A DNA stretch of 37,629 nt from Candidatus Stoquefichus sp. (GTDB lineage: Bacteria > Bacillota_I > Bacilli_A > Erysipelotrichales > Coprobacillaceae): contig JAETUM010000030.1 of the NCBI GenBank assembly GCA_021768625.1, forward strand, positions 1 through 37,629. Reading direction: 5' to 3'. The position numbers were made by a program, and so were the translations under genes. Below the pieces are notes generated by a model. It saw only the letters and a program-made list of their open reading frames with translations, ran no database searches and had not been told where the DNA came from. Below are positions 3,011 to 36,818 of this stretch, piece after piece; position 1 is the first letter of the stretch; every line of letters begins with the position of its first letter.

Positions 3011-3062
3011 TGAATCGGTTTAGTCTCTCGAACCACTTTAGTTCGATGAACTGACCGATTCA
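3011..3062. repeat. 26-bp-armed hairpin
   Basis: TGAATCGGTTTAGT pairs with ACTGACCGATTCA (one mismatch) and TCGAAC with GTTCGA around a CACTTTA loop, with a small internal bulge. It is followed by TTTGTATTTT. It could act as a forward-strand terminator, but no forward gene precedes it. Confidence 0.5.
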
Positions 3063-3072
3063 TTTGTATTTT

Positions 3073-3164
3073 GGCGGTTCTTGAAGTATAGGACAGGCTC
3101 TCATTTTTCTGTAAAAAGAAAATTGGGGCCTGTATTTGTATTTAGGTCAAGAATTCGAACCACC
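3073..3164. repeat. Nested inverted repeats before the IS3 transposase
   Basis: GGTTCTTGA at 3076-3084 pairs with TCAAGAATTCGAACC at 3147-3161, with a three-base bulge. Inside it ACAGGC at 3093-3098 pairs with GCCTGT at 3128-3133, and ATTTT-CT with AAGAAAAT. The foldback spans about 90 bases. Its relation to the insertion-sequence end is unclear. Confidence 0.4.
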
Positions 3165-3252
3165 CTATTTTGTTTTTATGGTATAGGGCATTTAAATGCC
3201 AGAGTCAGGGAGTATCATAAAACAATAAATTTTTTGAAGGAGGTATATTTTT

Positions 3253-4377
3253 ATGAAATATACGAAAAAATTCAAAGAGGATATCATTTCAAGATATTCC
3301 AAAGGAGAATCGGTACACGATTTGTCTCTATCAACCGGAACTAGTGTCAGCACAATATACAGTTGGATTAAGACTTCCGTGGGTATTGTTCCGGTAACTG
3401 GTCTTCATAAGACCATAAAAGAACAGGAAAAGAAAATTAGTCGGCTTGAGAATATGATAAAAATCATACAGAATGCCGATTTTTTCAAAAATGTTTCTTT
3501 GTCTGAAAGATTGGAAATTATTGATGAAGTTTGGGAAGAATATGGAATTAACGCTTCTTGTGATGCTTTAGATGTTGCACGGGGTACTTTCCATAATCAT
3601 CAAAAGAGAGGAAAGGGGAAAAACTATTTGCACGAAAAACGCAAGAAAGAATTGTTACCTGAAATTCAAAAGATTGACCAAGAATTTCATCATATTTATG
3701 GTGCGAATAAGATAACAGCTGAATTAAAGAATCGTGGCTTTAATGCAAGTAAAAACACGATTCTTAAAATTATGGAAGAAGAACACATTCGCAGCTTAAG
3801 AATGGATAAGAATTATCATGCATTTCTCAATAGCGAAAAGAAAAATGTGCTGAATAGAAAATTTGATATGGATAAACCTAATCAGGCTTGGGTGAGTGAT
3901 GTTACATATTTACAGATTGATGAAAACCATCCGAAATGCTATTTCCTATGCGTCATAATGGATTTGTACTCAAGAAAAATAATTGCCCATTCAGTAGGTG
4001 AAAGTAATAGCAAGCGCTTGATGAATTTGACACTTAAAAAAGCAGTTGAAGTGCGTGGCGTGCACAAAAATCTTGTATTTCATAGTGACAGAGGCTCTAA
4101 TTATACATCTAAATCATTTGGTGACTTAATAAATGAGTATGGCTTTATCCAATCATTTTCCAAACCAGGTACACCATATGATAATGCAGTCATAGAGTCA
4201 TTTTTCCAAAATTTCAAAATAGAATGTTTTAACCATTATTTCAATATAAAATCCAAAAAGGAATTGATAAATATTTTAGATGAATATGTCAATTTCTATA
4301 ACATTAAAAGGTCTCATTCCTATTTGAATTATGTGTCTCCAAATCAGTATGAAGATAGGTACTATCATTCAAAATAG
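3253..4377 (+). CDS. IS3-family transposase in one uninterrupted frame
   Basis: A 374-residue protein that combines what most IS3 members split into OrfA and OrfB. Residues 1-45 hold a helix-turn-helix (SVHDLSLSTGTSVSTIYSW). Residues about 55-80 form a leucine-zipper-like coiled coil. An HTH_21 region is around HHIYGANKITAEL, and the integrase core follows. Catalytic residues are visible: Asp about 216 in WVSDVTY, Asp about 279 in HSDRGSNY and Glu about 315 in VIESFF, with the DD(35)E spacing of the family. AAGGAGG precedes the ATG. The gene looks intact. I could not define matching terminal inverted repeats, so the element's ends are open. No programmed frameshift is needed, which is less common in this family. 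Confidence 0.88.
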   Translation: MKYTKKFKEDIISRYSKGESVHDLSLSTGTSVSTIYSWIKTSVGIVPVTGLHKTIKEQEKKISRLENMIKIIQNADFFKNVSLSERLEIIDEVWEEYGINASCDALDVARGTFHNHQKRGKGKNYLHEKRKKELLPEIQKIDQEFHHIYGANKITAELKNRGFNASKNTILKIMEEEHIRSLRMDKNYHAFLNSEKKNVLNRKFDMDKPNQAWVSDVTYLQIDENHPKCYFLCVIMDLYSRKIIAHSVGESNSKRLMNLTLKKAVEVRGVHKNLVFHSDRGSNYTSKSFGDLINEYGFIQSFSKPGTPYDNAVIESFFQNFKIECFNHYFNIKSKKELINILDEYVNFYNIKRSHSYLNYVSPNQYEDRYYHSK

Positions 4378-4484: not shown

Positions 4485-5402
4485 CTATATATTATATAAG
4501 GATAAATTCATCTTATTTCTCGGATGTTTTGATTCCAATATTTCACGAGTCTTGCTTGTACTGATATGAGTATAGATTTGCGTAGTTGCAATAGAACTAT
4601 GTCCAAGAAATTGCTGAATATATCTTATATCTACGTCTTCATTGTGGAGTTCGGTTGCGAAAGTATGTCTGAACATATGTGGTGTAATGTGCAATGGTAC
4701 ACCAACAGCATTTGCATAATCATTAACCATATATCGTATGGACTGCTCAGATAAGCGGTTGCCTAACTTGTTTGTGAGCAGGTAATCTGTTTTTCAAGAA
4801 CAGATTTTCAGGTAACTGCTTATCGTCTTATTTAAGTTATTGCTTATACACATTATTCGTTCTTTAGAACCTTTGCAGAATATTCGGATTGTGTTGTCGC
4901 CCAAGTTAACAGCAGAGAGTTTAAGATGAGATATTTCTGATACTCTCATTCCGGTTGAAAACAGTAACTCAATTACAACAATATTTCGTAAAGTTACCTC
5001 TTTCTGATAGTTTGTAACTGCTATTGAATGTTGTTTATATGCGTAAGTAAGCATATCCTGAATACAGTTCAGCGGTATCGTTCGTGGTAATTTTAAAGGC
5101 TCTTTGTATTTAAGAATTATCTTGTGGAACGGATTGAATTCAATAATATCTTCAATCTCCATATATCGATAAAATGCTTTTACACAGGCAATTTTCCTCT
5201 TTGCACTTTTAGGCTTGTACTGATTGTGCAGCATATTGATATATGAATTGAGTTCGTTTTTATCAAAGCAGTCACGCTGATTCATAAAATCACAAAACTG
5301 TCTTAAATCAATTTTGTAAGCCTTATGGGTTAGGCCACTTAAACCTTTTAAGGATTTACAAACAATTAAGTATTTGTCCTTTTCATTAACTAAATTAAAC
5401 AT
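4485..5402 (-). pseudogene. XerC-like tyrosine recombinase with one in-frame UGA
   Basis: Read in one frame, this is a 305-codon tyrosine recombinase interrupted only by TGA at codon 203 (4794-4796). The first part has the SAM-like core-binding domain and the box I arginine in STGMRVSEI (R153). The part after the stop has the typical SEQSIR motif, HMFRHTFATELH with H-x-x-R, GHSSIATTQIYTH and the tyrosine nucleophile. The stop separates box I from the remaining catalytic residues, so neither half could work alone. An internal ATG at 4730 could start only the C-terminal half. The start has GGAGG at good spacing. The gene is divergent from the inverted-repeat-flanked gene at 5615 and is a natural candidate for its inversion enzyme. 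It could be a true nonsense mutation, read through, or a sequencing error. Confidence 0.85.
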
Positions 5403-5517
5403 AAAAAACCTCCGTATATTGATAAGTTCATTATGACGGAGAATACATTAAAAGTCGATTATTATCTTGAAAAAATGTACAATTGTGTTGGTATTTTATA
5501 CAGTTTTGATGATTTTA

Positions 5518-5546
5518 TTGAAAAATTAAATTAAATGTAATAAAAT
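5518..5546 (+). promoter_or_regulatory. Candidate promoter outside the left inverted repeat
   Basis: TTGAAA (5518-5523), 17 bases, TAAAAT (5541-5546). Transcription would begin near 5553, just before the inverted repeat at 5565-5587, and run into the nuclease/methyltransferase gene. In this AT-rich context chance matches are possible. Confidence 0.5.
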
Positions 5547-5564
5547 ATAATTATATGAAATTTA

Positions 5565-5587
5565 AATAAAGGATAACTATGAATTAT
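5565..5587 (+). repeat. Left arm of a 23-bp perfect inverted repeat
   Basis: Bases 5565-5587 begin AATAAAGGATAACTATG and are the exact reverse complement of 7914-7936. The arm lies between the candidate promoter and the ribosome site of the gene at 5615, in its 5' leader. Identity stops sharply at both ends. See the finding on the possible invertible cassette. Confidence 0.9.
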
Positions 5588-5614
5588 CACAAAATTTATT
5601 GAGGAGTTTAGTTT

Positions 5615-7897
5615 ATGGAAAAATATACTTTTGAAAAAGATGGACAATATGATTTTTACAATATGTTTTTACCTCGAGTTAATCCTAACTTGAATATAGA
5701 AGAGATCTTAAATGATAATAATGACGGTATCATAAACGGTAATCTACTTGAATTCAAACTTCATGTAACTGATTTGAATTCTGTATTATTTCAATGTATA
5801 AAATATCTTTCAGCACTTCGAATAAAAGGAAAACCTGTACCTGCCAACATATTAATTATTGATGTAAATACTGCAACACTATGGCTATACCGTTCAGAAA
5901 AATACCTTAACAATATTGAAAAAGTATATTCAGGAGCTGCCTCAAAAGATAATAGTGAATTTATAGGTGAAAATGCTAATCAAGTATTGCATTATGACAA
6001 TCCTCTTGAAGTTGAAGATATCGTTAATTTGTTGAAAGAAAACAATTTTACAAAAATACATATTGATGAAAACTGCATTGTAGGTTGGGCAGAAACATTT
6101 TATAAAAAAGTTCCAATAGCAAGAAAAGAGGATTTTTTAGGGGATGATACGGGGAAACATAAAACTATTGGAGAAATAAGAAAACCTGTTCATTTGGCTG
6201 ATTATATTTATCCTTATAAAGGTAAATCTAATATAAAATTCAATTACTTAATGGATAAATTAAATGATACTTTGCAAAAGAAGAACTTAGGTGCTTTTTA
6301 TACACCTAAATTATATGCGAAAAAGTCTATTGAGTTAGTTCGTATAGCAATAGAGCGTGTTCCTGAAGGTAATGATTATATTATTCTTGATCGGTGTGCA
6401 GGAACAGGAAATCTTGAAAGCAATTTTACTGATGAAGAGTTGTCTCATTGTATTGTCTCCACCGTTGAATACTATGAATATAAGGTTTTGCAAGAATTGA
6501 TAGGTTCAAAGGTCAGACATATAATTCCACCAATTGAGACAACAGAAACATTTAATGCAGGGCTGGTTACAGGTGCTGATGCATTAAGCAAGGAATATAT
6601 AGACAATCCTGTTATAAAACAATATTTAGATAATCCTAACTGTACAATTATTCTGTTTGAAAATCCTCCGTATGCTGAAACGACATCTATTGAGCATCAA
6701 AAGAAAAAGCAATCCAAAAATTCTTCAGGTTGGAAAAATAGTTTTGTTGTCCAGCAAATGAAAAAAGAAATTAATGGCGTTACATCTAATGATTTGGGGA
6801 ATGCTTTTATTTGGTCAGCATTTAAATACTATTTAAGACAACCTACTGATAGTTATATTGTATTTTCTCCCGTTAAATATTGGAAAGCACAGCATCTAAT
6901 AGATAAAGAATTTATAAAAGGCTATGCTTTTAACAGAAGACATTTTCATACAAACATTGATGCTTGTATTATGTGTGCACTTTGGGGATATAAGGATATC
7001 AAAAATAAAAAATTAAAAATATCAGCAATTGATTTAGATAAAAACAATAATTATCAAAATTGCGGAATCATTGATGTTGAAAAAATTCATACATCATTTA
7101 GTAGTAAATTCTTTGATAAAAGAAAATTTGATGATTTACAAGGGTCATTGCTTTGTAGTCTTGATGGTTTAGAATATTCTGGTAAAAGAAGTACTTTTAA
7201 ACCAGTTTATAATGAAAATATTTTAGGATATATGGCAGTTTATTCGTCAGGCTTTGATAATCCTGATTTGCATAGTTGTCTTTTAATAGGTGGTAGATAC
7301 GATGGACATGGTTTCTATTTACGGAAAGATAATTATCTAGAAAAACTACCAATGTTTTGCGCTTCAAGATACATAACATATAATCGTCAATGGACAGAAC
7401 GTGCAAGAATTATGAAATCTGCTGACGGCGCCGATAAATTTTATAAAGATGTTGCAAATGGCAACTTAGAACAATTCTTATTAAAGTGTCTATTGTTTAC
7501 TTGTGTTGAAATGCAAAATCATATGCGTACTTTTACTGGCAGTGATAGAAGATTTTATCGCAATGAATTATGTCTTGACAAAACTAATAATGAAACAATA
7601 GCATCTCATGATATTAAGAAGCTTGTAATTGGAAAAAAGGAACACGAACTTATAAATCAATGGAATACTGTTTTAAACTATGCGAAAAAAACCAAGAACT
7701 ATAATTCACAATTAACATACGGAGTCTATCAAATATATGCAGAACTGGATACATCGCATATTGATGAAACAACTGGTGATACTATTTGGGATTATGTTGA
7801 ATTACATACAGCACTTGCAGGTTTAAAAACCCTTGTTAAAAATTATTACAATTCTGAAATAGTTCCAATATTATTTAAATATGAATTTCTAAAATAA
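5615..7897 (+). CDS. Type IIG-like fused nuclease and N6-adenine methyltransferase
   Basis: A 760-residue protein. The N-terminus has a PD-(D/E)xK-like motif: Asp37-Gly, then LLEFK with Glu46-x-Lys48, in a strand-rich context. The middle holds an N6-adenine methyltransferase: LGAFYTPK near residue 230, motif I DRCAGTGN near 258-265 (SAM binding) and motif IV NPPY near 350 (catalytic). The remaining 400 residues probably include the target-recognition region. This order fits type IIG (Eco57I-like) enzymes that cut and methylate with one chain; the nuclease assignment is weaker than the methyltransferase one. GAGGAG precedes the ATG. The gene is alone between the arms of a 23-bp perfect inverted repeat, with a recombinase gene beside it. 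Confidence 0.78.
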   Translation: MEKYTFEKDGQYDFYNMFLPRVNPNLNIEEILNDNNDGIINGNLLEFKLHVTDLNSVLFQCIKYLSALRIKGKPVPANILIIDVNTATLWLYRSEKYLNNIEKVYSGAASKDNSEFIGENANQVLHYDNPLEVEDIVNLLKENNFTKIHIDENCIVGWAETFYKKVPIARKEDFLGDDTGKHKTIGEIRKPVHLADYIYPYKGKSNIKFNYLMDKLNDTLQKKNLGAFYTPKLYAKKSIELVRIAIERVPEGNDYIILDRCAGTGNLESNFTDEELSHCIVSTVEYYEYKVLQELIGSKVRHIIPPIETTETFNAGLVTGADALSKEYIDNPVIKQYLDNPNCTIILFENPPYAETTSIEHQKKKQSKNSSGWKNSFVVQQMKKEINGVTSNDLGNAFIWSAFKYYLRQPTDSYIVFSPVKYWKAQHLIDKEFIKGYAFNRRHFHTNIDACIMCALWGYKDIKNKKLKISAIDLDKNNNYQNCGIIDVEKIHTSFSSKFFDKRKFDDLQGSLLCSLDGLEYSGKRSTFKPVYNENILGYMAVYSSGFDNPDLHSCLLIGGRYDGHGFYLRKDNYLEKLPMFCASRYITYNRQWTERARIMKSADGADKFYKDVANGNLEQFLLKCLLFTCVEMQNHMRTFTGSDRRFYRNELCLDKTNNETIASHDIKKLVIGKKEHELINQWNTVLNYAKKTKNYNSQLTYGVYQIYAELDTSHIDETTGDTIWDYVELHTALAGLKTLVKNYYNSEIVPILFKYEFLK

Positions 7898-7913
7898 TAC
7901 TGATTATTTAAAA

Positions 7914-7936
7914 ATAATTCATAGTTATCCTTTATT
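7914..7936 (-). repeat. Right arm of the 23-bp perfect inverted repeat
   Basis: Exact reverse complement of 5565-5587, starting 16 bases after the stop codon of the nuclease/methyltransferase gene and ahead of the terminator at 7965-7996. Confidence 0.9.
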
Positions 7937-7964
7937 AAGTTTTAATTCAAAAAATATACAAATC

Positions 7965-7996
7965 AAAAATCACTCATCGATTGATGAGTGATTTTT
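7965..7996 (+). terminator. Strong bidirectional terminator
   Basis: A 14-bp perfect stem (AAAAATCACTCATC / GATGAGTGATTTTT) with a GATT loop, carrying T and A runs on both sides. It closes the gene at 5615 and would stop leftward transcription from entering the inverted-repeat segment. Confidence 0.85.
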
Positions 7997-8100
7997 GACA
8001 TTGATATTAATATTAATTGTTTATTTAGTATTGTTTATATATTACCGTATGATATATGACCACTATGTTCATATATGAAACTATCATCCTGTTATAAAAC

Positions 8101-8180: not shown

Positions 8181-9476
8181 TTGGAAATTAATAGAGATAT
8201 TTATCTAAATAGAATTATTACAAGAAAACAAAATGGATTTATTAAAGTAATCACTGGAATTAGAAGATGTGGTAAATCATATTTAATGAATAAAATTTTC
8301 TATAATTATTTACTGTCCGAAGGTGTTAAAAAAAATCATATTATCAAATTTGCATTTGATTCAGCAGATGATTTATTACTTATAGATGAAGATATTTTAG
8401 ATATTAGTGAACAAAATAGAAAAGTTGATCCGAGAAAATTTATGAAGTACATTTCAGGCAAAATTGTTGATGATGAAATGTATTATCTTCTCCTTGATGA
8501 AGTTCAGCTGCTTGGAAATTTTGAGGCTGTGTTAAATGGATATATGCGAAAGGATAATTTGGATATTTATGTTACAGGCAGTAATTCTAAATTTCTTTCA
8601 AGTGATATACTGACTGAATTTGAGGGTAGAGGGGATGAAATTCATATTCTTCCGTTATCATTTTCAGAGTTTTATTCTGTATATGAAGGCACAAAAGAAG
8701 AAGCATTTGATGATTTTATGGTATATGGCGGTTTACCGGCTATAGCCTCAATGCAAACTGATGAGCAAAAAGCTAATTATTTAATAACACAGATGAAAAA
8801 TGTATATATCAAAGATATAGTAGTAAGAAATAATCTTAACTCTGATCAAGAGATTAGTGAGCTTGTAGACGTCTTAGCCTCGGGTATATCATCATTAACT
8901 AATCCTAGAAAATTGGAGAATACTTTCAAGTCAGTCAAAAATGCTACTCTCTGCGCATCTACAATTGACAAATATATTGGTTATTTAAAAGATTCATTTT
9001 TGATTAGTAAAGCTGAGAGATATGATGTAAAAGGTAAGAAATATATCAGTACACCTTACAAACTTTATTTTGAAGATACCGGACTTAGAAATGCCCGATT
9101 GAATTTTAGACAAATAGAAGAAACTCATTTAATGGAAAATATCATTTATAATGAACTTAGGTATAGAGGATACAATGTTGATGTTGGTGTAGTTGAATTT
9201 AGAGAAAAGACAGATGAGGGTAAAGAAGTTCGTAAACAGGTCGAAATTGATTTTGTAGCGAATCAAGGCAGCAAACGGTATTATATTCAGTCTGCATATG
9301 AGATACCAAATAATGAAAAATGGCAGCAGGAGACAAGACCGTTTGATAAAACCAATGATTCATTTAAGAAAATTGTTATTGTTGAAAAGAGTATGAAACC
9401 ACGCAGAGATGATAAAGGATATCTCATGATGGGGGTAAAAGAATTTTTGCTTGATAGTGATAGCCTGGAAATGTGA
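8181..9476 (+). CDS. AAA ATPase with DUF4143-type C-terminus
   Basis: A 431-residue protein of the AAA_14/DUF4143 family. Walker A is GIRRCGKSY (residues 26-34), Walker B is YLLLDEVQ (about 102-109), and TGSNSKFL is a sensor-like segment. The C-terminal third has a winged-helix-like region and EIDFVA near residue 355, a nuclease-like motif often seen in DUF4143. Start is TTG at 8181 behind GGGGTGAT; the nearby ATGs are out of frame. These proteins are common on accessory islands and their role is poorly known. It has its own promoter and probably forms a single-gene unit. A defence role is guessed only from the neighbourhood. Confidence 0.8.
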   Translation: MEINRDIYLNRIITRKQNGFIKVITGIRRCGKSYLMNKIFYNYLLSEGVKKNHIIKFAFDSADDLLLIDEDILDISEQNRKVDPRKFMKYISGKIVDDEMYYLLLDEVQLLGNFEAVLNGYMRKDNLDIYVTGSNSKFLSSDILTEFEGRGDEIHILPLSFSEFYSVYEGTKEEAFDDFMVYGGLPAIASMQTDEQKANYLITQMKNVYIKDIVVRNNLNSDQEISELVDVLASGISSLTNPRKLENTFKSVKNATLCASTIDKYIGYLKDSFLISKAERYDVKGKKYISTPYKLYFEDTGLRNARLNFRQIEETHLMENIIYNELRYRGYNVDVGVVEFREKTDEGKEVRKQVEIDFVANQGSKRYYIQSAYEIPNNEKWQQETRPFDKTNDSFKKIVIVEKSMKPRRDDKGYLMMGVKEFLLDSDSLEM

Positions 9477-11583: not shown

Positions 11584-13266
11584 TTAAATAAAATTTGAGA
11601 GGATAATATTTATTTCGTTTTCTAATTCATTATATAAATGATTCGATAACAAATGATTTTTCTCATTATTAAGTTCTATTATGTTAATATTGTCAATTTT
11701 TTTTGCGATTTCTAATCCTTCAATTGAAGAAACAATAACTTGATTTGAGGTTTCATTCCAATTAAGTAATGTTTCAAGTATGGATTCTATATGAAAATTA
11801 TCTTGCTCAAAAGAATTCGGCGAATCAATTACAAGTGGGAAAGAAATAATATTTGGCTGATTCAATTTTTGCATTTTTGCAAACGCCAGCATCTGTGATA
11901 TTTTACATCTTGGTCCGTAGGCACCGCTTACTCGAATTTGTGTTCCTGGTTCAATATTTTCTTTTATTTGTTCTTTAGGAATATCCAATACATCGGATAA
12001 TTCATAGAACATATTTTCATATTCTTCTACTGCTTTCGCCCTTTCTTTTTTATATTGGTTTAAAATTTTATTTGACTCATTTTGCTTGTTTTTAAGTTCT
12101 TTTATTTCCCTATTATTTTCAGCAGATTGAACACTGTAATCTTGTATCATTTTACTTGTAACTTTTGATTTTAAATATATATCATAGATTTCTTGCGTTT
12201 CAGTCAAAGAATTTTCTATAGCATTAAGTTCATTTTGGTATGCTTTAAACTTTTTTTCTTGATTGTTAATACGAGTTTCGCATTTTTTTACTTTTTCAAT
12301 AAGTAATAATAAATCACTATTTATTGACTCTTTAAGATATTCGTTTCTTACTTTTCCGGCAATAGATGATGAAAAGAAATAACCGCAATGAGGACATTCA
12401 ACACTTTCATCATAAGATTGTTCTGTTTTATCTCTATTCTTCTTTAAAAATTTAGATATAATCTCTTTTTCTTGAAGACATTTTAAACGATAATCTTCTT
12501 CCATAATTATTTGATTACGAGTTTTTTCTATCGAGATTAATAATTCTTTCAATTCTTTTTTTCTGCTTTCAATGGAAATCTCTAAAGTTTTTTCGTCAAA
12601 TGAATACAGAATTTTATCTAAACCGTTTGATAAAGTTTCAATAACAGTATCTAATTTATCATTTGCTTTCTTTAATTCTTCAATTCTTTTAATCGAAAAT
12701 TTATTGTCCTTAGAAGCAGATACATATTTTCTGTCATAAACTCCAAAATGAAAAAAATAGCTTTCTTTCCTTTGGTTTTTGTCAAATTGATTTAATGAAT
12801 TAAAAGAATCAGAATTGTTTGACCAACCATTTTCTTGATCTATATAGTATGGCAAATAATAAAACACTGGTGGACATTTAACGATGTCCTCATTCTCATT
12901 TTTACCTACTAATTCAATATCAAAATTAAATATATCGCTTATTTTATTTCCAAATTCCCCGATTGAATTATATTTATCAACAAAGTTTCCATTTTGATAA
13001 AGAATAAAATAGCGACTATATCGTACAACTCTAAATTTTTCATCTTGTATATGGAAATCTAGATATGTAATTAAATTTTTCGTATCAATTGTGACGGGAT
13101 AATACACCTCTGCTCCAAGAGAATAATAAATACTTTTCATAATAAAGCTTTTTCCTAAATGGTTGCTTTTACTGGTAAGAAAGTTTTTACCATCTGAAAA
13201 TTCTATCCTTTTGGCTTCTTTATTTTTTATATCTACGATTGTTACATAATCAATTATCAAATCCAA
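11584..13266 (-). CDS. Rad50/SMC-like ATPase of a two-gene defence-type system
   Basis: A 560-residue P-loop ATPase. Walker A is SKSNHLGKS (residues 32-40), in the setting FLTSKS..GKSFIMKSIYYSLG usual for ABC/SMC heads. Two long coiled-coil arms (about 190-275 and 310-430) flank a zinc-hook-like CPHC near 289-292. The C-terminal head has an ABC-signature-like SGAYGPRCKISQ and Walker B FPLVIDSPN near 473. Size and domain order fit LmuB of Lamassu or the ATPase of ABC-3C systems. Its start overlaps the upstream nuclease gene by 17 bases, so the two are probably translationally coupled. The expected role is to sense foreign or abnormal DNA and control the nuclease. Confidence 0.75.
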   Translation of the reverse strand: MDLIIDYVTIVDIKNKEAKRIEFSDGKNFLTSKSNHLGKSFIMKSIYYSLGAEVYYPVTIDTKNLITYLDFHIQDEKFRVVRYSRYFILYQNGNFVDKYNSIGEFGNKISDIFNFDIELVGKNENEDIVKCPPVFYYLPYYIDQENGWSNNSDSFNSLNQFDKNQRKESYFFHFGVYDRKYVSASKDNKFSIKRIEELKKANDKLDTVIETLSNGLDKILYSFDEKTLEISIESRKKELKELLISIEKTRNQIIMEEDYRLKCLQEKEIISKFLKKNRDKTEQSYDESVECPHCGYFFSSSIAGKVRNEYLKESINSDLLLLIEKVKKCETRINNQEKKFKAYQNELNAIENSLTETQEIYDIYLKSKVTSKMIQDYSVQSAENNREIKELKNKQNESNKILNQYKKERAKAVEEYENMFYELSDVLDIPKEQIKENIEPGTQIRVSGAYGPRCKISQMLAFAKMQKLNQPNIISFPLVIDSPNSFEQDNFHIESILETLLNWNETSNQVIVSSIEGLEIAKKIDNINIIELNNEKNHLLSNHLYNELENEINIILSNFI

Positions 13267-14431
13267 CTAAATCATCTCCAGCACAATATTTATAAATTAA
13301 AATCATAGTTAATAAACTAATATAACTATCGTCATATATTACTGTTGTTTTTATATTTTCGATTACATAGTTTCTAATTTTTACATTATCATCAATTCCG
13401 TAATTAATAGCAGTATTAATCCAAGAATATATATCAATAAGAAGTTTTCTGTAAATTGAATCATCCTTTAACATATCTCGTTTTATAGATCTATATATTT
13501 TTGAATATGTTCTTTTTTCTATGACAGAGGTAATTGAAAATTCGTTAAAAATTTTATCTATGCCTGGTAATTGTACTACCAATCCACAATTTATTATTTC
13601 TTTAATTTCTTTGCTATTAAGACCCTTAGTTACAAATATTTCATTTACATTACTACAATCTTCATTTAATTCATTATTAAAAACATCATCTAATTTATCG
13701 TAAATAATATTAAATAATGCTCTCGCTGTTTCAATCTGAACATCTGAAGAAAGACTATTCAAAAATGATTCAAATTTATATGTAATGTCTTGTTTGTGAT
13801 TTTTTGTAGTGAGTTCTGTTTTTATAAAATAGTAAGAACTTAAATCAACATCAGTTACAAGAATGTTATTGTATTTGGCTATCGCATCCTTAATTTTATT
13901 AATGTTCTTGAGTTGAATATCATCACTAACACTCGTCTGCTTATTAATAAGAATTGAATTTTTTCCATCTAATATATCTGCATTACAAACAATATTTGCT
14001 GTTTCAACATAATTGCTGTATTTTAATCCATTAGAATATAACTTTTGAAACCATTCGTCTTTGATAATTGAAGCAAGTGTAAAGTTTGAACCAGCTTTTT
14101 TTGATTTAACCTGGTATATATGGATCTTACTAGGATCATTTGGATTTTCAATTACAGAAACATCTTCAATATAATCCATTAATATTAAAAAATCTAAATT
14201 ATAGAATTCAATAATTAATTCTATAGCATAACTAATTTGTAATGACAAACGATTCTTACTTCTTGAACCATATATTTCTTTATGTGATTTTTCTATTTCT
14301 TGTTTTAACGACAAAATATCACCACCTTTTTCAATTGTAGCATATTGATAATAATTATACAAATCAATATTAGTGAATTTATAAATTAAAATACTTTGAT
14401 TTGACGGACCGCTCATATTTGTTTTGAACAT
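13250..14431 (-). CDS. DUF4297/Cap4-like nuclease, effector partner of the ATPase
   Basis: A 393-residue protein. Residues 60-115 resemble the dsDNA endonuclease domain of DUF4297/Cap4: a helix (LQISYAIELIIEF), then Asp86 and Glu89-Asp90 in MDYIEDVSVI, then IYQVKSK with Gln107-x-Lys109, i.e. a PD-(D/E)xK site of the E...QxK kind. The C-terminal 280 residues are helical and unrecognised and may bind the ATPase. In Lamassu-Cap4 and in some ABC-3C systems such a nuclease is paired with an SMC-like ATPase and kills or stops the infected cell. There is a short N-terminal extension; Met6 is an alternative start. The ribosome site is weak. Confidence 0.7.
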   Translation of the reverse strand: MFKTNMSGPSNQSILIYKFTNIDLYNYYQYATIEKGGDILSLKQEIEKSHKEIYGSRSKNRLSLQISYAIELIIEFYNLDFLILMDYIEDVSVIENPNDPSKIHIYQVKSKKAGSNFTLASIIKDEWFQKLYSNGLKYSNYVETANIVCNADILDGKNSILINKQTSVSDDIQLKNINKIKDAIAKYNNILVTDVDLSSYYFIKTELTTKNHKQDITYKFESFLNSLSSDVQIETARALFNIIYDKLDDVFNNELNEDCSNVNEIFVTKGLNSKEIKEIINCGLVVQLPGIDKIFNEFSITSVIEKRTYSKIYRSIKRDMLKDDSIYRKLLIDIYSWINTAINYGIDDNVKIRNYVIENIKTTVIYDDSYISLLTMILIYKYCAGDDLVGFDN

Positions 14432-18353: not shown

Positions 18354-19661
18354 TTAGATATCCTTATTCTTATATTCTTTCGTATACAATTCAACTATTT
18401 GAACTCCGTACGGAATTCCCATTTCCTTGTCTATAAGTATGCCGTGCGGAATCACAAGTCTCTTCAAATTGATGCAGCCGAAAAATGCCCGATCGCCTAT
18501 TATTTTAATTGTGGAAGGCAAAAAAATCTCTTTTATTTTCTCGCATTTATTAAAAGCGCAAGTTCTTATTTCTTCCACGCCCTCTGGAATGACAATCGCC
18601 TCCAAATTGGTGCAATCGGAAAACGCCCAATCACCTATTATTTTAATTGTGGAAGGTAAAGAAATATTCTTGATTTTTTCGCATCCCCAAAATGAACATT
18701 TTCCAATTCTTTCTACGCCCTCTGGAATGACAATCGTTTCTAAATTAGTGCAGTAGGGAAAAGCCTTGTCGCCTATTTTTTTAATTGTGGAAGGTAAAGA
18801 AATCTCTTTTATTTTCTCGCATTTATCAAAAACACAAGCTCCTATTTCTTCCACGCCTTCCGGAATGACAATCGTCTCTAAATTGGTGCAATCGGAAAAA
18901 GTCCAATCATCTATTTTTTTGATTGTGGAAGGCAAAAATATCTTCTTTATTTTCTTGCATTCATCAAAAACGCAAGCTCCTATTTTTTTCACGCCGTTTG
19001 GAATCACTATTCTCTTCAAATTGATACAGCCGTAAAATGCCCAATCGTCTATTATTTTGATTGTTGAAGGTAAAGAAATATTCTTGATTTTTTCACATCC
19101 CCAGAATGAACATTTCCCAATTTCTTCTACACCCTCCGGAATGACAATCGTTTCTAAATTGGTGCAGTAGGAAAAAGCATTGTCGCCTATTTTTTTGACA
19201 GAGGAAGGCAAATGAAGTTCCTTTATTTTCTCGCATCCGCTAAAAGAAAAGTTGCTTAATTCCTCCACACCTTCCGAGATTACAACTGTTTCTAAATTGA
19301 TACAGCCGGAAAAGGTCCCATCATCAATTTTCTTTATTGTGGAAGGCAAAGAAATCTCCTTTATTTTATTACACATACTAAACGAGTATTCTCCAATTTT
19401 CTCTACTCCCTCCGGTATGATGATTTTCTCCAAATTGTCACATCCGAAAAAAGCACCTCTGCTTATTCTTTTTATTGTAGAAGACAGGGAGAGCATCTTT
19501 ATTTTCTTACATCTCATAAAAGAGTACATCTCAATTTCTTCTACGCCATCTGGTATGATAATACTACCATTCGCCTCTGCGACGCTGACAAGCGTTTCGG
19601 CAATTTTACTATCAAGTAAGCGATAACTATTGCTTAAAATATCCGCTTCCAATATAGTCAC
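18354..19661 (-). CDS. BspA-type leucine-rich repeat protein (LRR_5), no signal peptide
   Basis: 435 residues built almost wholly of 23-residue repeats alternating two types: (N)LETIVIPEGVEEIG...F..C and EKIKEISLPSTIKKIGD.AF. This gives about eight 46-residue double units between residues 25 and 415. This is the LRR_5 (BspA) solenoid, usually for protein or surface binding. No signal peptide, membrane segment or wall anchor is seen, so it should stay in the cytoplasm, unlike most BspA proteins. The first in-frame start is GTG at 19661, directly on the ribosome site; TTG at 19652 behind AAGGAG is the better choice. Repeats are very similar at DNA level, which favours unit gain and loss. Confidence 0.85.
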   Translation of the reverse strand: MTILEADILSNSYRLLDSKIAETLVSVAEANGSIIIPDGVEEIEMYSFMRCKKIKMLSLSSTIKRISRGAFFGCDNLEKIIIPEGVEKIGEYSFSMCNKIKEISLPSTIKKIDDGTFSGCINLETVVISEGVEELSNFSFSGCEKIKELHLPSSVKKIGDNAFSYCTNLETIVIPEGVEEIGKCSFWGCEKIKNISLPSTIKIIDDWAFYGCINLKRIVIPNGVKKIGACVFDECKKIKKIFLPSTIKKIDDWTFSDCTNLETIVIPEGVEEIGACVFDKCEKIKEISLPSTIKKIGDKAFPYCTNLETIVIPEGVERIGKCSFWGCEKIKNISLPSTIKIIGDWAFSDCTNLEAIVIPEGVEEIRTCAFNKCEKIKEIFLPSTIKIIGDRAFFGCINLKRLVIPHGILIDKEMGIPYGVQIVELYTKEYKNKDI

Positions 19662-27368: not shown

Positions 27369-29443
27369 GCAGAACAGGTGATGACGGCAAGAGCCTTGAT
27401 TATTCAATGACATACAGTAATTTCGGTTATCTGACTTCAACAAAGGTCGGCAATCAGCTTTTGTCCTCAAATACATATAATGAGAAAAACGGCAATATGC
27501 TGCAAACGGTTTACGGCAATGGCGATAAATTGAATTATACATATGATAATATCGGCAATGTAACGTCTGTAAAGCAGAATGATGAATTAACCAACAGTTC
27601 TGTATATAATAACCGTGGCCTTTTAATGACAGATAAAGACCTTACAAACGGCTTGTCAACAGATTACGGATATGATACAATAAACCGTATAACAGGCAAA
27701 AAGGTGCATACTCTTGATTCAATGCAGTCGATATTTGCAACAGAGTATAAGTATGATATAAACAGTCAGATAACGCAGATTGTAAATACGGCAGGCGGCA
27801 GAAGATACAGTCAGAATTATGAATACGGCAAGGACGGACTTTTAACAAAATACACTTTCAGCAATACAAAAACTATTGATTATACTTATGATGGCTTAAG
27901 CAGGCTGAATAAAAAAACATTTGATATAGGCGCGGATAATGATTTAATAACAAAGTATCTGTATAAAGATTCGGACAGAAGACAGCCTGTAATGGAATGT
28001 TATACAACTAATTTTATTAAAAGTGAAATAATAAATAATCATAATTATTCTTATGATTATGATGCACTGGGCAATATTATCCGTATAAGTGAAAAGACAA
28101 GAGTTGATATAGGCAATCCCAAAGAGGTTGTATCATATGAATATGATGATCTTAGTCAGTTGACTCGTGAAAACAACAAAAATCTGAATCAGACCATAAC
28201 ATATGAATATGACAGCGGCGGAAATATTCTTAACAAAAAGATTTATCCGTTAACAGCAGGCGAGATAACGGGAAGTCCGACAGAAACCATCACATATTCC
28301 TATGAAAACAGTAATTGGTGCGATCAGCTTACTGTGTATAACGGTCAGCAGATAACCTATGATGAAATCGGTAATCCGATAAGTTATTTGGGTTATAATA
28401 TGTCTTGGTTCGGCAGGCAGTTAAACAGCTTTAGCGGCAACGGGCTTGATGTCAGTTATGCTTATGACCAGAGCGGAATAAGAATTTCCAAAACAGTAAA
28501 CGGCGTAAAGTATGAATATCAGTATGACGGCAGTAAACTGTTTTATGAAAAGAGAGATAATGCGGAATTTTATTATCAGTACGATTGTTCAGGCAATTTA
28601 TCTACAATAATTCATTATGACGGCAACGGAAACAGGGCACAGTATTATGTGCTCTGCAACAGTCATGGTGATGTAGTTGATATTTATAATCAGGATGGTA
28701 CGATAGCCGCTCACTATATCTATGACAGTTGGGGCAATACTGTATCCATTCTTGATAACGATGTTAACGGAAATGAAATAACAGACCCGAACAATATAGG
28801 AATAATTAATCAAATTAGATACAGAGGCTATTATCTTGATACAGAAACAGGCTATTACTACCTGATGTCAAGATACTATAACCCCGAAATCGGTAGGTTT
28901 CTGAACACTGATGATTTTGATTTGATTTATTGTTCAGAAGATTCATTAATAGAAAATAATTTATATGCTTATTGTTTAAATAATGCAGTTAATATGATTG
29001 ATGGAGATGGGTGTTTTGCTGCTACTGTAAGCACGGTAGTTGTTGCTGTTATAGCGGTGTTAATATTTAGTATATTATTGACACCGATTTTGATTGGTAA
29101 TATATTAGTTAATTGCGATAGTTTTGATTGCGATAGTTCTGACTTGGAAATTTCAATGAGTATTGAATGTAAATTTGCAGTCGCATTTTCTTTGGGCCTT
29201 GTTCCTTCACTTATTAATGGTTGTATATTATTTGCTAAGCAGTCAAAACAAAGTAAAAAAGAAAGATCAACTGATGTTCCAAGTTGGATAAGTGCATTCC
29301 CTCCGGATCCTAATGAGAATTCACACAATTATGCAAAAAGAATTTTAGATTCAAAATATGGTAAAGGTAATTGGAAAAAAGGTCCAGGTTCAGAATATAA
29401 TAAAATTGTTAAGCATGCTCAAAGAAGTCTGGGGATGAAATAA
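27353..29443 (+). CDS. RHS/YD-repeat protein lacking its N-terminus, with C-terminal toxin-like domain
   Basis: The frame opens at the junction at 27353 (first ATG 27407). It carries about ten YD repeats (YDNIGNVTSV, YDGLSRLNK, YDQSGIRISK), then the RHS core end RYRGYYLDTETGYYYLMSRY with GRFLN (around 28823-28910). After it comes a variable region: a hydrophobic segment and a tail with VPSWISAFPPDPNENSHNYA and KYGKGNWKKGPGSEYNKI. This tail has the look of a polymorphic-toxin catalytic domain, type not determined. The usual signal peptide and N-terminal part are absent, so delivery is doubtful unless this piece serves as a donor for recombination. The stop overlaps the immunity gene's ATG by one base. 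Confidence 0.8.
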   Translation, partial: SLSSLSRTGDDGKSLDYSMTYSNFGYLTSTKVGNQLLSSNTYNEKNGNMLQTVYGNGDKLNYTYDNIGNVTSVKQNDELTNSSVYNNRGLLMTDKDLTNGLSTDYGYDTINRITGKKVHTLDSMQSIFATEYKYDINSQITQIVNTAGGRRYSQNYEYGKDGLLTKYTFSNTKTIDYTYDGLSRLNKKTFDIGADNDLITKYLYKDSDRRQPVMECYTTNFIKSEIINNHNYSYDYDALGNIIRISEKTRVDIGNPKEVVSYEYDDLSQLTRENNKNLNQTITYEYDSGGNILNKKIYPLTAGEITGSPTETITYSYENSNWCDQLTVYNGQQITYDEIGNPISYLGYNMSWFGRQLNSFSGNGLDVSYAYDQSGIRISKTVNGVKYEYQYDGSKLFYEKRDNAEFYYQYDCSGNLSTIIHYDGNGNRAQYYVLCNSHGDVVDIYNQDGTIAAHYIYDSWGNTVSILDNDVNGNEITDPNNIGIINQIRYRGYYLDTETGYYYLMSRYYNPEIGRFLNTDDFDLIYCSEDSLIENNLYAYCLNNAVNMIDGDGCFAATVSTVVVAVIAVLIFSILLTPILIGNILVNCDSFDCDSSDLEISMSIECKFAVAFSLGLVPSLINGCILFAKQSKQSKKERSTDVPSWISAFPPDPNENSHNYAKRILDSKYGKGNWKKGPGSEYNKIVKHAQRSLGMK

Positions 29444-29835
29444 TGAAAAAGTTAGTGTTGTTAAATCACATTGATAAAGAAAATCATTTCAAATTATTAG
29501 GTGTTTTTAATAGTGAAATGGTTGAAGAAGTGATTGAAAAGTACAAATTATTACCTGGTTTTTGCAATTCCGGAGGGCAATTTAATTTTCAGGATATTAT
29601 TTTTTCTGATAGTAGATATATATGGGTTGTTTCAGTTTGGAATGAGGATGATTATGAAGATAAAATCATTCATCAAAAAATGTTTGCAACTGAAAAAGAT
29701 GCAAATAAATTTTTACAAAGTATTTCCAATTTATTAGATTATGATGAGTACTGTATTGATAAATATATTGTTAATGAAATGGAGTGGTCGGAAGGTTATA
29801 TAGTATTTTCAAATAGTATAAACGATAATTTTTAA
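29443..29835 (+). CDS. Putative immunity protein for the RHS toxin at 27353
   Basis: 130 residues, acidic and soluble, starting at an ATG that overlaps the toxin gene's stop (TAATG). No known motif recognised. Position directly after an RHS C-terminus, small size and coupling are the grounds for calling it immunity. The in-frame codon after its TAA continues straight into the next RHS fragment (29836). Confidence 0.6.
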   Translation: MKKLVLLNHIDKENHFKLLGVFNSEMVEEVIEKYKLLPGFCNSGGQFNFQDIIFSDSRYIWVVSVWNEDDYEDKIIHQKMFATEKDANKFLQSISNLLDYDEYCIDKYIVNEMEWSEGYIVFSNSINDNF

Positions 29836-31170
29836 TATTATAAAAATATTCTTAACAAAAAGATTTATCCGTTAACAACAGGTGAGATAACGGGAAGTCC
29901 GACAGAAACCATCACATATTCCTATGAAAACAGTAATTGGTGCGATCAGCTTACTGCGTATAACGGTCAGCAGATAACCTATGATGAAATAGGTAATCCA
30001 ATCAATTACCTAGGCTATAATATGTCTTGGTTCGGCAGGCAGTTAAATAGCCTTAGCGGCAACGGACTTGATGTTAGTTATGCTTATGACCAGAGCGGAA
30101 CAAGAATTTCAAAAACAGTAAACGGCGTAAAGTATGAATATCAGTATGACGGCAGTAAACTGTTTTATGAAAAGAGAGATAATGCAGAATTTTATTATCA
30201 GTACGATGGTTTAGGCAATCTTTCAACGATAATTCATTATGACGGAAATGGAAACAGGGCACAGTATTATGTGCTCTGCAACAGCCGTGGTGATGTTGTT
30301 GATATTTATAATCAGAATGGTACGATAGCCGCTCACTATATCTATGACAGCTGGGGCAATACCGTATCCATTCTTGATAATGATGTCAACGGAAACGAAA
30401 TAACAGACCCGAACAATATAGGCATAATCAATCAAATCCGTTACAGAGGTTATTATCTTGATACAGAAACAGGCTATTACTACTTGATGTCAAGATACTA
30501 TAACCCAGAAATCGGAAGGTTTCTGAATGCTGATGCTCTTATCGTAACAAAAGGTGTAATTCATATTAATCAATATGCTTATTGTTATAATAATCCGATA
30601 AATTTTTCTGATGCAATAGGTTATTCGCCGGATAATAATATTGTTATGGCTATATTTCAGGGATTGTGCGGAGCAATATTAATTAATGGTTTGCTTGAAT
30701 CTTGTGGTGATTTATTAACAGGATTGTTTAATTGGTCCTTTAACAATGGCTTTATTAATGTTTTTCAGGAACTAATATATACTACCATAGCTATTGTATC
30801 CAGTTGTGCTTTGACTGCTTCTAATTTTTTATCTGGTTCTATATATGCAAATGCTACTTCGAAATCCTTTTCAATATTGTCCAAAACGCAAGATTTAGAA
30901 TTTGATGCAGCTGAAAAAGCTGGTTCTTTTGGAAAATTTGTTGGTATTTTGGGAGCATTTGTTAATTTTTCTGATAATATGGATAAACGTGGGCAGGGAG
31001 TTTTCGGTAAAAATACAGATACTGTTTTAGCACTTATAAGTTTGGTGTGTGATATAGGTGGCAGTTTGTTTGGTGATGAAATTCCCTTTTTAGGTACTTT
31101 TATATCTTTTACCGGAGAAAATTTGCCGAGAATAATAGCAATGAGAATTGAGGGATTTGTGGTATGTTGA
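29836..31170 (+). CDS. Orphan RHS tip with a second, membrane-type C-terminus
   Basis: From 29844 to about 30530 the DNA repeats 28222-28910 of the previous RHS gene almost base for base, with scattered changes (for example Q to N and S to R codon differences). Without an RBS-led start at its beginning, the first ATG is 30022. After GRFLNAD the sequence diverges fully: AYCYNNPINFSDAIGYSPDN, then hydrophobic helices, then FGKNTDTVLALISLVCDIGG. It is an alternative C-terminal toxin-like tip, not a duplicate of the first. Its stop overlaps the next gene (31164). This is a classic displaced orphan Rhs-CT cassette. Confidence 0.75.
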   Translation, partial: YYKNILNKKIYPLTTGEITGSPTETITYSYENSNWCDQLTAYNGQQITYDEIGNPINYLGYNMSWFGRQLNSLSGNGLDVSYAYDQSGTRISKTVNGVKYEYQYDGSKLFYEKRDNAEFYYQYDGLGNLSTIIHYDGNGNRAQYYVLCNSRGDVVDIYNQNGTIAAHYIYDSWGNTVSILDNDVNGNEITDPNNIGIINQIRYRGYYLDTETGYYYLMSRYYNPEIGRFLNADALIVTKGVIHINQYAYCYNNPINFSDAIGYSPDNNIVMAIFQGLCGAILINGLLESCGDLLTGLFNWSFNNGFINVFQELIYTTIAIVSSCALTASNFLSGSIYANATSKSFSILSKTQDLEFDAAEKAGSFGKFVGILGAFVNFSDNMDKRGQGVFGKNTDTVLALISLVCDIGGSLFGDEIPFLGTFISFTGENLPRIIAMRIEGFVVC

Positions 31171-33525: not shown

Positions 33526-33770
33526 TGCGATTTATTATAATCCTCTTTGGATGTTCTTAAGCTGTCACCGTTGTAGGTGTAGGCAATTTCACTGTCACCG
33601 TCAGTAATACTTTGTAACTGTCTGCCTGTCCAGGTGAGAGATTTTTCACCGATTGTTAACGGGTTGCCGATTTCATCGTAGGTGATAGATTCACCATTGA
33701 AATTGGTAAGTAAATCTCCCCAAGTGGAATCGTTGTATTCCCACGTTTTGGTAGTTGGTGTTGCGGGCGG
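33519..33770 (-). pseudogene. RHS core fragment
   Basis: Reverse frame TPTTKTWEYNDSTWGDLLTN to YNGDSLRTSK, nearly identical to the fragment at 35930-36115, then out of the RHS sequence (EDYNKSQC, stop). It starts at repeat copy 2. Both its ends are recombination junctions. Confidence 0.7.
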
Positions 33771-34003
33771 ATACTATCCGCCCCTACGAGGTTGTAGGGG
33801 CAATTTATGAATTGTCCGTTTGTGTTGTCATAAGGTTGTATTTTTATAATGTAGTAATGTGTTTTTGAAAAACGGCGGGCGGCGGTAAAATAAAATGATA
33901 AAAATTTGGGGAAAAGCCGCCCACCGTAGTAAACAATGAATTTAATCATTGTTGTACCTGAAATAATGGTTGATTGCGGCGGGGTGAGGGCACCCCGCCC
34001 TAC
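33765..34003 (-). repeat. Multi-hairpin interspersed repeat, copy 2
   Basis: Contains GGGCGGATA-C-TATCCGCCC, CCTAC..GTAGG, an AATT-centred palindrome, ACGGCGGGCGGC pairing with GCCGCCCACCGT 30 bases on, AACAATGA/TCATTGTT, and GGCGGGGTG/CACCCCGCC. It lies between the immunity gene at 34015 and the RHS fragment at 33519-33770. Confidence 0.75.
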
Positions 34004-34014
34004 GAAAAATTGAA

Positions 34015-34752
34015 TTATTTTCGTAAATTTTCATTTGAAATATTGAGTGCTTTAAGTAAAAAATTTCGCATTTTTTTAATTTGTACTATTCCGAAATCTT
34101 TTGGAGGAATTCCGATGTAAAGCGTTTTTCCTCCGAAAGAATACCCGGCTCGTAATTCATATTCACGCATTGATGTAACAGAAGTATCATTTAAATGTTT
34201 ATAAAAAGATGAAGACACTTTATTTACACAAAGCATAGAGGATACGGATATAGTATAATTTCTCCATTCGCTTTTTTCTTTAATGAATTGTTCTAAAATA
34301 TTTGATGTTTCATTTAATATTATCTTAACTTCTTCGTTATCAGAATACATTATTACATAATATGAAACAGATATACCATGATTTTTATAATAGATAAATA
34401 TTTTATTTTTTTGATGTTCCGTATCAGGTTCATATAATTGATATTCTTCTTGGATCAGTTTTGTCGAAAGTTTTAAATGTAATTCATCAAAATTAGAAAA
34501 GTTTATATCTGCTTTATCAGGCTTTTCTGTTTTGCTCCATTTTTTTAAAACTGAATTAGGTATAGTACATGATAATATAATTACAGGTATTCCGAAAAAG
34601 AAAACCATTCCAATCCAAATAGCGACATATATATCTGTCATTTTATCTGTATAAAATATTGGGAAAATTTCAGGAATGAAAAAACCTAGAACAAATGCAA
34701 GAAATGAAAGGACAGTGCAAATTTTTATTATAGTTTCAATCTTTTTAATCAT
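34015..34752 (-). CDS. Putative membrane immunity protein
   Basis: 245 residues. Two hydrophobic helices at the N-terminus (CTVLSFLAFVLGFFIPEIF and IYVAIWIGMVFFFGIPVIIL), then a soluble domain of mixed strands and helices. Its ATG overlaps the TGA of the RHS tip (34749-34752), so translation is coupled. Immunity is inferred from position. Family not recognised. Confidence 0.6.
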   Translation of the reverse strand: MIKKIETIIKICTVLSFLAFVLGFFIPEIFPIFYTDKMTDIYVAIWIGMVFFFGIPVIILSCTIPNSVLKKWSKTEKPDKADINFSNFDELHLKLSTKLIQEEYQLYEPDTEHQKNKIFIYYKNHGISVSYYVIMYSDNEEVKIILNETSNILEQFIKEKSEWRNYTISVSSMLCVNKVSSSFYKHLNDTSVTSMREYELRAGYSFGGKTLYIGIPPKDFGIVQIKKMRNFLLKALNISNENLRK

Positions 34753-36115
34753 GATGCATCATCCTTTTCATATTCAGTAGGATAAAGTTCTAATACAGGT
34801 TCTTGACTATCATTAAAGCCAATTGATAGTCCGTTGTATACAATATCCATTACTCCATTCATACATTCTTCAGAACCAAGTTGCGCAAAAGTTTTTTGAG
34901 CATAGCTTCCCGTAAGGCAAGTGCTTAATTTTACCGGCTTAAACCAACCGGAATTTACTTTTACGATTTTATTAGATAATTTTCCAGTTAATGCACCTAC
35001 TGTACCACCTATGAGAGTGTCTCTTCCGATTTTTATATATGAATTTATTCTGTTTTTTTGTGTTTTTTTCTTTTTTTTAGAACCGTTATATTTAGAAAAT
35101 TTAGTTTCGTTTACAGCTGATTCAACAAAAGCACCAGCAAATGCACCAGCTGCTGGATGACCGCAAGCGGTTAAAAATCCAGCAACTGCACCACCGAGGA
35201 AAGCACCTGCCCAGCCAGAATACCATTTTTTACCAGTTGCAATATTCGAAGCAATTCTACCACCTGTAGAAATTAGTCCACCTACTACAGTTGCAACTGG
35301 TATCCACCAACCTTTACCTTGTTTATCTTCTCTGGTAATTGGATTATTACTACAATAGGAAAATAGATTATTACCGAGTGTGTCATTATTTATTTGGCCA
35401 TCGCCATTAATAAACCTGCACATATCAGGAGAATAGTAACGGGTGTTGAGATAGTACCACTCAGTTTCCTTATCGTAGTAGTAACTGCGGTAGAGGATAG
35501 GGTTGATACGGGCAAGGATTGATGATTCGGTGGCAAATTGGATTGGTTCACCGAATTCATCACATACAGTATACCATTTACCGGTATCAGAGTCATATTT
35601 TGCTCTTAGTTCGTATTCTTCTGAATTGGTAATATCTTTACCGCTTTTGGTTAAGATTTTGTTTATTTTGCCCCAAGCATCATACTCGTACCTTACAAGT
35701 ACTACTCCACGGGCATCAGCAATGGCGATAACGTCATTCTGAGCATTCTTAATGTAATAGTATTCAAATCATTGTAGATAACACCGAAAATATCGGAATT
35801 ATTATCATACATAAATACGAGTGTATAATCGCCAGACTTCTGACCTGCAAGGATTGAACCGTTGTAGTAATAATTGGTGGTTTCTCCGTTTATGGTTTTT
35901 GATGTACGAAGTCCGTCGCCGTTGTAGGTGTAGGCAATTTCACTGTCACCGTCAGTTATACTCTGTAACTGTCTGCCTGTCCAAGTGAGAGATTTTTCGC
36001 CGATTGTTAACGGGTTGCCGATTTCGTCATAGGCGATTGATTCACCATTGAAATTGGTAAGTAAATCACTCCAAGTGGAATCGTTGTATTCCCACGTTTT
36101 GGTAGTTGGTGTTGC
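34749..36115 (-). pseudogene. Orphan RHS core with glycine-rich C-terminal tip, one frameshift
   Basis: Starts at repeat copy 3 with PATPTTKTWEYNDSTWSDLL and runs through YD repeats to FGVIYND, where a base is missing near 35763. In the other frame it continues EYYYIKNAQNDVIAIADARG through the RHS core RYYSPDMCRFINGDG and NNPI to a tip. The tip (about residues 150 on) has WWIPVATVVGGLISTGGRIA, GGAVAGFLTACGHPAAG and KKKKKTQKNR: a glycine/alanine-rich stretch then a basic part, often seen before toxin domains. The frameshift lies before the tip, so only a downstream restart would make the tip. Confidence 0.7.
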
Positions 36116-36311
36116 GGGCGGATAGTATCCGCCCTTACGAGATTGTAGAGGCAATTTATGAATTGCCCGTTTGTGTTGTTATAAGATTGTATTTTTATAA
36201 TGTAGTAATGTGTTTTTGAAAAACGGTGGGCGGCAGTAAAATAAAATGATAAAAATTTGAGGAAAAAAAACGCCCACCGTAGTAAACAATGATAAATCAT
36301 TGTTGCACCTA
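36116..36311 (-). repeat. Multi-hairpin interspersed repeat, copy 3
   Basis: Begins GGGCGGATA-G-TATCCGCCC, then the same blocks as copy 2 to ACGGTGGGCG / CGCCCACCGT and AACAATGATAAATCATTGTT. Located between the immunity gene at 36327 and the RHS fragment ending at 36115, the same relative position as copy 2. Confidence 0.75.
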
Positions 36312-36326
36312 AAGTAAAAATAGTTT

Positions 36327-36818
36327 TTATTGATTCGATGTGTCAATACTTGTATTTTGGATAGGCTTTTTATAAGTAATAAAAATATCAAATGAGATAA
36401 GAAAAATAAATATAAAATCTAAATTAATGTTCAAACTGTTTTCTAAAATAGTTCTTAAATCACTTTTTATAAAAATGTCTTCAATACATCCTATTGAATA
36501 TGTTTGGGATATTATTAATACCACGCAAATACATATATCTGTAACACACAAAATTTCAAGAATAATATTCAAAATTAATTTATATTTACTTTTTTTAAAA
36601 AAAAGAGATATTATTAATACAAATTCTATAAGAAAAAAAGTTAGTGCCAATATAGTTTCCGCTATATTTCCAAACATAGCAAACCCATAAACAAAATAAT
36701 TAATGTGATTCATTACAGTTGCATGAGTATTGGTTATAAATATACTAATGATATTTATAATAATGAAAATTAAAAGTAAAAATCTAATTATGTTTAAATA
36801 TTTAGTGTGTTTTTTCAT
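36327..36818 (-). CDS. Putative four-helix membrane immunity protein
   Basis: 163 residues with four hydrophobic segments (FLLLIFIIINIISIFI; ILALTFFLIEFVLIISLF; ILNIILEILCVTDICICVVL; LDFIFIFLISFDIFI). Its start overlaps the RHS tip gene by 17 bases. It is called immunity from position and coupling only. Confidence 0.6.
   Translation of the reverse strand: MKKHTKYLNIIRFLLLIFIIINIISIFITNTHATVMNHINYFVYGFAMFGNIAETILALTFFLIEFVLIISLFFKKSKYKLILNIILEILCVTDICICVVLIISQTYSIGCIEDIFIKSDLRTILENSLNINLDFIFIFLISFDIFITYKKPIQNTSIDTSNQ

Follow-up and report, generated by a model that had tools for sequence, protein, structure and literature searches.

What is the role of a perfect inverted repeat that encloses a single gene and lies beside a recombinase? 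Such an arrangement is present in a contig of Candidatus Stoquefichus sp. (JAETUM010000030.1), analysed here over its whole length of 37,629 nucleotides (nt) and called the window throughout. We find that the locus belongs to a recurring system of cassettes that can be inverted and exchanged, a variant of the known inversion switches and dif modules. In the reading that we consider probable, the system is a family of site-specific invertible cassettes, each consisting of a dedicated Xer-like recombinase and two inverted dif-like sites of the form [AG]TAA-7 base pairs (bp)-TTA[TC]. The elements of the window's copy are as follows.

5565-5587, plus strand: left recombination site, proximal to the recombinase, AATAAAGGATAA-CTATGAA-TTAT
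7914-7936, minus strand: right, distal recombination site, the inverted copy of 5565-5587
4485-5402, minus strand: Xer-like tyrosine recombinase gene, interrupted in frame by a TGA at 4794-4796
5615-7897, plus strand: cargo gene for a putative nuclease/N6-adenine methyltransferase of 760 amino acids, assigned from motifs
5601-5606, plus strand: ribosome-binding site GAGGAG within the cassette, as read in the sequence

The arms at 5565-5587 and 7914-7936 are perfect reverse complements over 23 bp, and the cassette between them holds exactly one open reading frame (ORF), 5615-7897 on the plus strand, which starts 28 nt past the left arm and stops 17 nt short of the right arm. An earlier note on this DNA had described both features, and both are borne out. 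The similarity of the arms continues beyond the perfect match, giving 33 nt at 88%, with the left arm imperfectly extended outward to 5555; no further copy of the arm was found in the genome with up to 3 mismatches allowed. Between the two 600-nt flanks of the gene, the longest inverted match is 23; 200 first-order shuffles averaged 10.8 and never exceeded 15.

Is the repeat linked to the neighbouring recombinase? Relatives of this recombinase from its own order and class, from plasmids and from viral contigs were surveyed for inverted repeats having one arm no more than about 400 nt from the recombinase gene. Repeats of at least 15 bp that contain [AG]TAA-N7-TTA[TC] occur at 22 of 71 recombinase loci, and 804 control placements within this DNA yielded none. 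The contrast is somewhat optimistic, since the core motif was defined on the data in which it was counted. When the motif is disregarded, repeats of at least 17 bp are present at 20 of 63 loci and 12 of 496 controls. The 7-bp spacer is identical within a repeat pair and different between most loci, as expected for the core of a tyrosine recombinase site. In a quick tree of the recombinases, sites are absent from a group of 23 rows made up of other Xer-like proteins, and the remaining 45 rows contain 23. Intact homologues of the window's recombinase fall below the NCBIfam equivalog cut-offs for XerC and XerD, the one in the window's nearest relative (locus L048) scoring 244 bits for XerC (cut-off 335) and 235 bits for XerD (cut-off 330), and the window's recombinase is best classed as a dedicated Xer-like type distinct from the housekeeping XerC and XerD. 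Some viral contigs also carry recombinase relatives, three of them with the same kind of repeat. Another site, of the form AAGGATAA-N7-TTAT (L270, G052:C4:432919-432937), was noticed in the genome that carries the L061 cassette, some 33 kb away from it.

These counts bear directly on the suggestion that the repeat is a functionless product of chance or local duplication. Short matches are commoner in AT-rich sequence, and a recombinase that is broken in this genome would also suit such an origin; yet a match of 23 bp where the shuffles reach at most 15, together with the confinement of motif-bearing repeats to recombinase loci, leaves this explanation effectively refuted.

What kind of gene is enclosed? 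The earlier note had proposed a fused nuclease and N6-adenine methyltransferase, which is plausible from the motifs and finds no match in Pfam, PADLOC, NCBIfam or PDB. The protein carries NDG-x7-EFK at residues 36-48, DRCAGTG at 259-265 and NPPY at 350-353, all invariant or nearly so among 13 aligned orthologues, a combination that plausibly suggests a PD-(D/E)xK-like nuclease joined to the methyltransferase. We infer from it a type IIG-like restriction-modification enzyme. The predicted structure (mean predicted local distance difference test score, pLDDT, 57) gave solely weak matches to S-adenosylmethionine-dependent methyltransferase folds, with E-values of 0.02 or worse, and the model is too poor for classification. 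Close relatives, with 64-75% identity, occur at 17 loci in Clostridia, Treponema, Phascolarctobacterium, Aeriscardovia and others, the hosts being taken from record titles, which can be wrong for metagenome-assembled genomes. Limosilactobacillus plasmids carry homologues of about 41% identity as stand-alone genes. A viral origin of the enzyme was also considered and rejected, as there was no match among phages or viral contigs. One orthologue (L018:2950-5323) has a disrupted reading frame and an internal 32-bp inverted repeat (4651-4682 / 4733-4764), perhaps a small insertion.

The distribution of the enzyme raises the possibility that the 23-bp repeats are the terminal inverted repeats of a transposon-like enzyme unit, moved by an unrelated transposase, with the recombinase a chance neighbour. 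The presence of the enzyme in very distant hosts would agree with this, as would the cassette-less state of L048 (genome G140). However, none of the 17 loci has the repeat, inverted matches in the 600-nt flanks of 14 enzyme orthologues reaching 11 bp at most, and no close full-length recombinase relative adjoins the orthologous genes; such recombinase-like matches as these loci do show are faint or incomplete (L148, at 22% identity; a 47-residue piece at the edge of L013). The earlier note had named absence of the repeat from orthologous loci as evidence against its proposal. We read the absence in these 14 differently: the repeat is not a property of the enzyme but belongs to the recombinase locus, and the enzyme is acquired cargo. 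The same core motif, moreover, adjoins related recombinases with unrelated cargo. Finally, L048, whose flanks are 83% identical to the window's on the left (IS3 region and recombinase) and 89% on the right (AAA_14 gene), retains a single palindromic recombination-type site, AAAGGATAATCATTAATTATCCTTT, in place of the 2.3-kb cassette. A transposon-like unit is therefore strongly disfavoured.

How would such a cassette operate? Recombination between the inverted N7 sites would flip the whole intervening segment. Transcription is proposed to enter from the recombinase side, with a terminator insulating the distal side, so that the orientation of the cassette would determine transcription of its cargo. 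Most relatives would express one or the other of two convergent genes, whichever occupies the expressed end; in the window a single large gene would be switched ON or OFF. The sites are also the boundaries at which whole cassettes have been swapped or lost, perhaps by way of mispaired sites, cointegrates or plain homologous recombination between flanking sequences. We infer the recombinase acting at these sites to be the cause of inversion, exchange and loss alike. Two further features of the window are relevant to this scheme.

5518-5546, plus strand: promoter-like TTGAAA-17-TAAAAT outside the left arm, directed into the cassette (10 of 12 positions matching)
7962-7999, no assigned strand: bidirectional terminator-like hairpin that would insulate the distal end, kept in the cassette-less L048

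The hairpin is strong, with terminator-like features on both strands, and four such sites were found in the region where 0.3 are expected, which upholds the terminator proposed earlier outside the right arm. A terminator outside the distal arm is also clear at L056, L109 and L116. Given this insulation, the ON/OFF switching of the whole gene that the earlier note had envisaged would be a natural consequence of inversion.

The layout of other cassettes is in line with a switch. Each of the 18 others examined contains two convergent genes or gene sets (the second gene of the L098 cassette being taken from annotation), with gene starts at most some 70 nt from an arm save for one at 342 nt; of the cassettes compared for gene layout, only the window's has a single gene. 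In plasmids of the Streptococcus salivarius type the ribosome-binding site lies inside the repeat, and in two records so does the start codon. The cargo comprises a SIR2-STALD (ThsA-like) protein facing a TIR protein, TIR-TPR proteins, AAA/STAND-like TPR proteins and ATP-grasp ligases, as well as an SHMT-like enzyme, a glycosyltransferase, a polyprenyl synthetase and methyltransferases; only part of this cargo is recognisably of the defence type. The earlier picture of a switch of the epigenome is thus too narrow, given that the usual cargo is a pair of convergent genes and that cassettes are exchanged or lost.

What evidence is there that the cassettes do invert? In the congeners represented by L109 and L116, homologous cassettes are found with the interior inverted and the flanks collinear, a contrast between species rather than within a clone. 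The reversed orientation anticipated in relatives is thus observed for this pair of cassettes, but not for the window's own. In genome G466 both flank contigs break off precisely where the common site ends; mixed orientations would produce such ends, as could the absence of the cassette or the presence of a different one. G128 shows the flank on the recombinase side connected to both ends of the cassette, and has a third site, with a different flank, next to an N. Recombinases within 250 nt of a contig end number 10 of 45 outside the 23-row group and 0 of 23 inside it (p = 0.013), a weak excess, as some of them are on viral contigs. That the repeats are recombinase sites, as first suspected, is corroborated by the core motif beside this subfamily, the opposite orientations in congeners and the assembly breaks at the sites.

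Exchange is evident as well. Streptococcus plasmids L094, L097 and L098 have near-identical flanks around unrelated cassettes, with the switch at the arms, and the same is true of Aliarcobacter plasmids L100 and L101; flank identity within these sets is 90-99%. A palindromic site like that of L048 also adjoins the recombinase of G349, at the end of two contigs. One may therefore ask whether the repeats serve mainly for the gain, loss and swapping of cargo between plasmids and chromosomes, in the manner of the Acinetobacter dif modules, with inversion a non-regulatory by-product. The differing cassettes between near-identical flanks fit this view, and so does the empty site in L048. The half-sites are dif-like, the pdif core being ATAA-N6-TTAT (PMC13141974), and a ThsA/TIR pair should require both its genes. 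On the other hand, convergent genes tight against the arms, ribosome-binding sites within some repeats and distal terminators are better suited to the switching of expression, and inverted sites favour inversion over excision. We regard exchange as the principal function as unlikely, though it is the most serious of the rival explanations.

The preferred reading, an invertible cassette family with orientation-controlled expression, has its own difficulties, which include the definition of the core motif on the data in which it was counted and the between-species nature of the L109/L116 contrast. Promoter-like matches are no commoner in the region than in shuffles (21 against 21.9); the promoter posited earlier outside the left arm thus stands as a match at 5518-5546, yet one that constitutes weak evidence. 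Some distal flanks, for example those of the S. salivarius plasmids, may have promoters of their own. At L061:4155-6378 a ThsA-like SIR2-STALD gene and a TIR gene lie convergently within an inverted-repeat cassette; they are probably partners rather than alternatives, and strict either/or expression cannot for that reason be general. Inversion there would swap which Thoeris-like partner adjoins the recombinase. No inverted copy of the window's own cassette was found among the genomes searched, one per species, and within-strain inversion was not seen in the S. salivarius plasmids, where strains sharing a cassette have it in identical orientation.

A further difficulty, the most immediate for the window itself, lies in its recombinase. 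The gene is divergent from the cargo and starts at 5402, 162 bases from the left arm, much as the earlier note had it; what that note overlooked is the TGA at 4794-4796, which divides the 305-position reading into 202 and 102 codons, so that the frame is not intact in this genome. The catalytic R and K lie upstream of the TGA, and HxxR, H and the nucleophilic Y downstream; both fragments match PF00589, and R, K, HxxR, LGHSS and Y are conserved across the aligned family. The homologue in L048, with 86% identity, is intact. A frameshift was rejected in favour of a single in-frame TGA, and recoding is unlikely, since TGA terminates 3 of 19 other ORFs checked and is an ordinary stop here; a sequencing error is possible. 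With the nonsense codon, no self-catalysed flipping is predicted and present-day phase variation of this copy becomes doubtful. The assembly runs unbroken through the cassette, which is probably locked, probably in the ON state, as the gene faces the promoter-like site; locked ON is our best guess for its state. Another recombinase could possibly flip it in trans.

The surroundings of the cassette include two flanks in common with L048.

3011-4377, plus strand: left flank common to L048, an IS3-family transposase region (ORF 3253-4377)
8181-9476, plus strand: right flank gene for an AAA_14/DUF4143 ATPase (PADLOC PDC-S01), its start common to L048

Farther on, 11584-14431 on the minus strand carries LmuB- and LmuA-like genes (Lamassu), the latter with a Cap4-type nuclease domain; together with the PDC-S01 gene these place the cassette among defence-type genes. 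Elsewhere in the window there is a repetitive protein of 435 residues with leucine-rich BspA-like repeats (18354-19661), and a number of RHS/YD-repeat protein fragments whose C-terminal cores are alike occur on both strands (27407-31170 and 34749-37563). A 19-bp inverted repeat (33765-33783 / 36116-36134) was noticed along with them.

How does the system compare with those already described? Surface genes and hsdS domains are the best-known targets of DNA inversion. In the G segment of phage Mu and the C segment of P1, two convergent alternative gene sets lie between inverted sites beside an invertase gene, the same layout as here; these systems differ in their serine invertases (Gin, Cin) and tail-fibre genes, and we know of no exchange for unrelated cargo in them. 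The Gin and Cin inversions are mentioned in PMC12529663. In hsdS inversion (PsrA and relatives; PMC4948785, PMC7096588), a tyrosine recombinase flips type I restriction-modification DNA. Specificity domains are shuffled there within hsdS genes, whereas in the window a whole single-polypeptide gene is enclosed. The putative enzyme resembles type IIG enzymes in having nuclease-like and N6-adenine methyltransferase-like motifs in one chain. The type IIG enzyme of Campylobacter jejuni switches by slippage in a repeat tract, not by inversion of the whole gene. PMC5903667 cites this enzyme as phase-variable. Also comparable are the Acinetobacter pdif modules, whose cargo is bounded by inversely oriented ATAA-spacer-TTAT sites, which shuffle and for which inversion and excision have been shown by polymerase chain reaction (PMC13141974, PMC6449649). 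Those modules employ the host XerC and XerD, a 6-bp spacer and two distinct half-sites; the sites found here have a 7-bp spacer and a dedicated adjoining recombinase.

We found no description of such a cassette arrangement in the open-access literature, preprints not being covered. We suggest, tentatively and at somewhat less than even odds, that these loci represent a widespread and apparently undescribed class of cassettes. In this class one dedicated Xer-like recombinase, together with dif-like N7 sites, would both invert and exchange pairs of immunity-like genes (Thoeris-like, TIR, STAND/ATP-grasp, small membrane-protein pairs, restriction enzymes), providing switchable and swappable defence in clonal populations. 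Recombinases have been observed beside defence genes with their role described as unknown (PMC12529663), and the family could explain some of them. If this is true, phase-variable, modular immunity would become directly testable, including on the plasmids of cultured Streptococcus salivarius.
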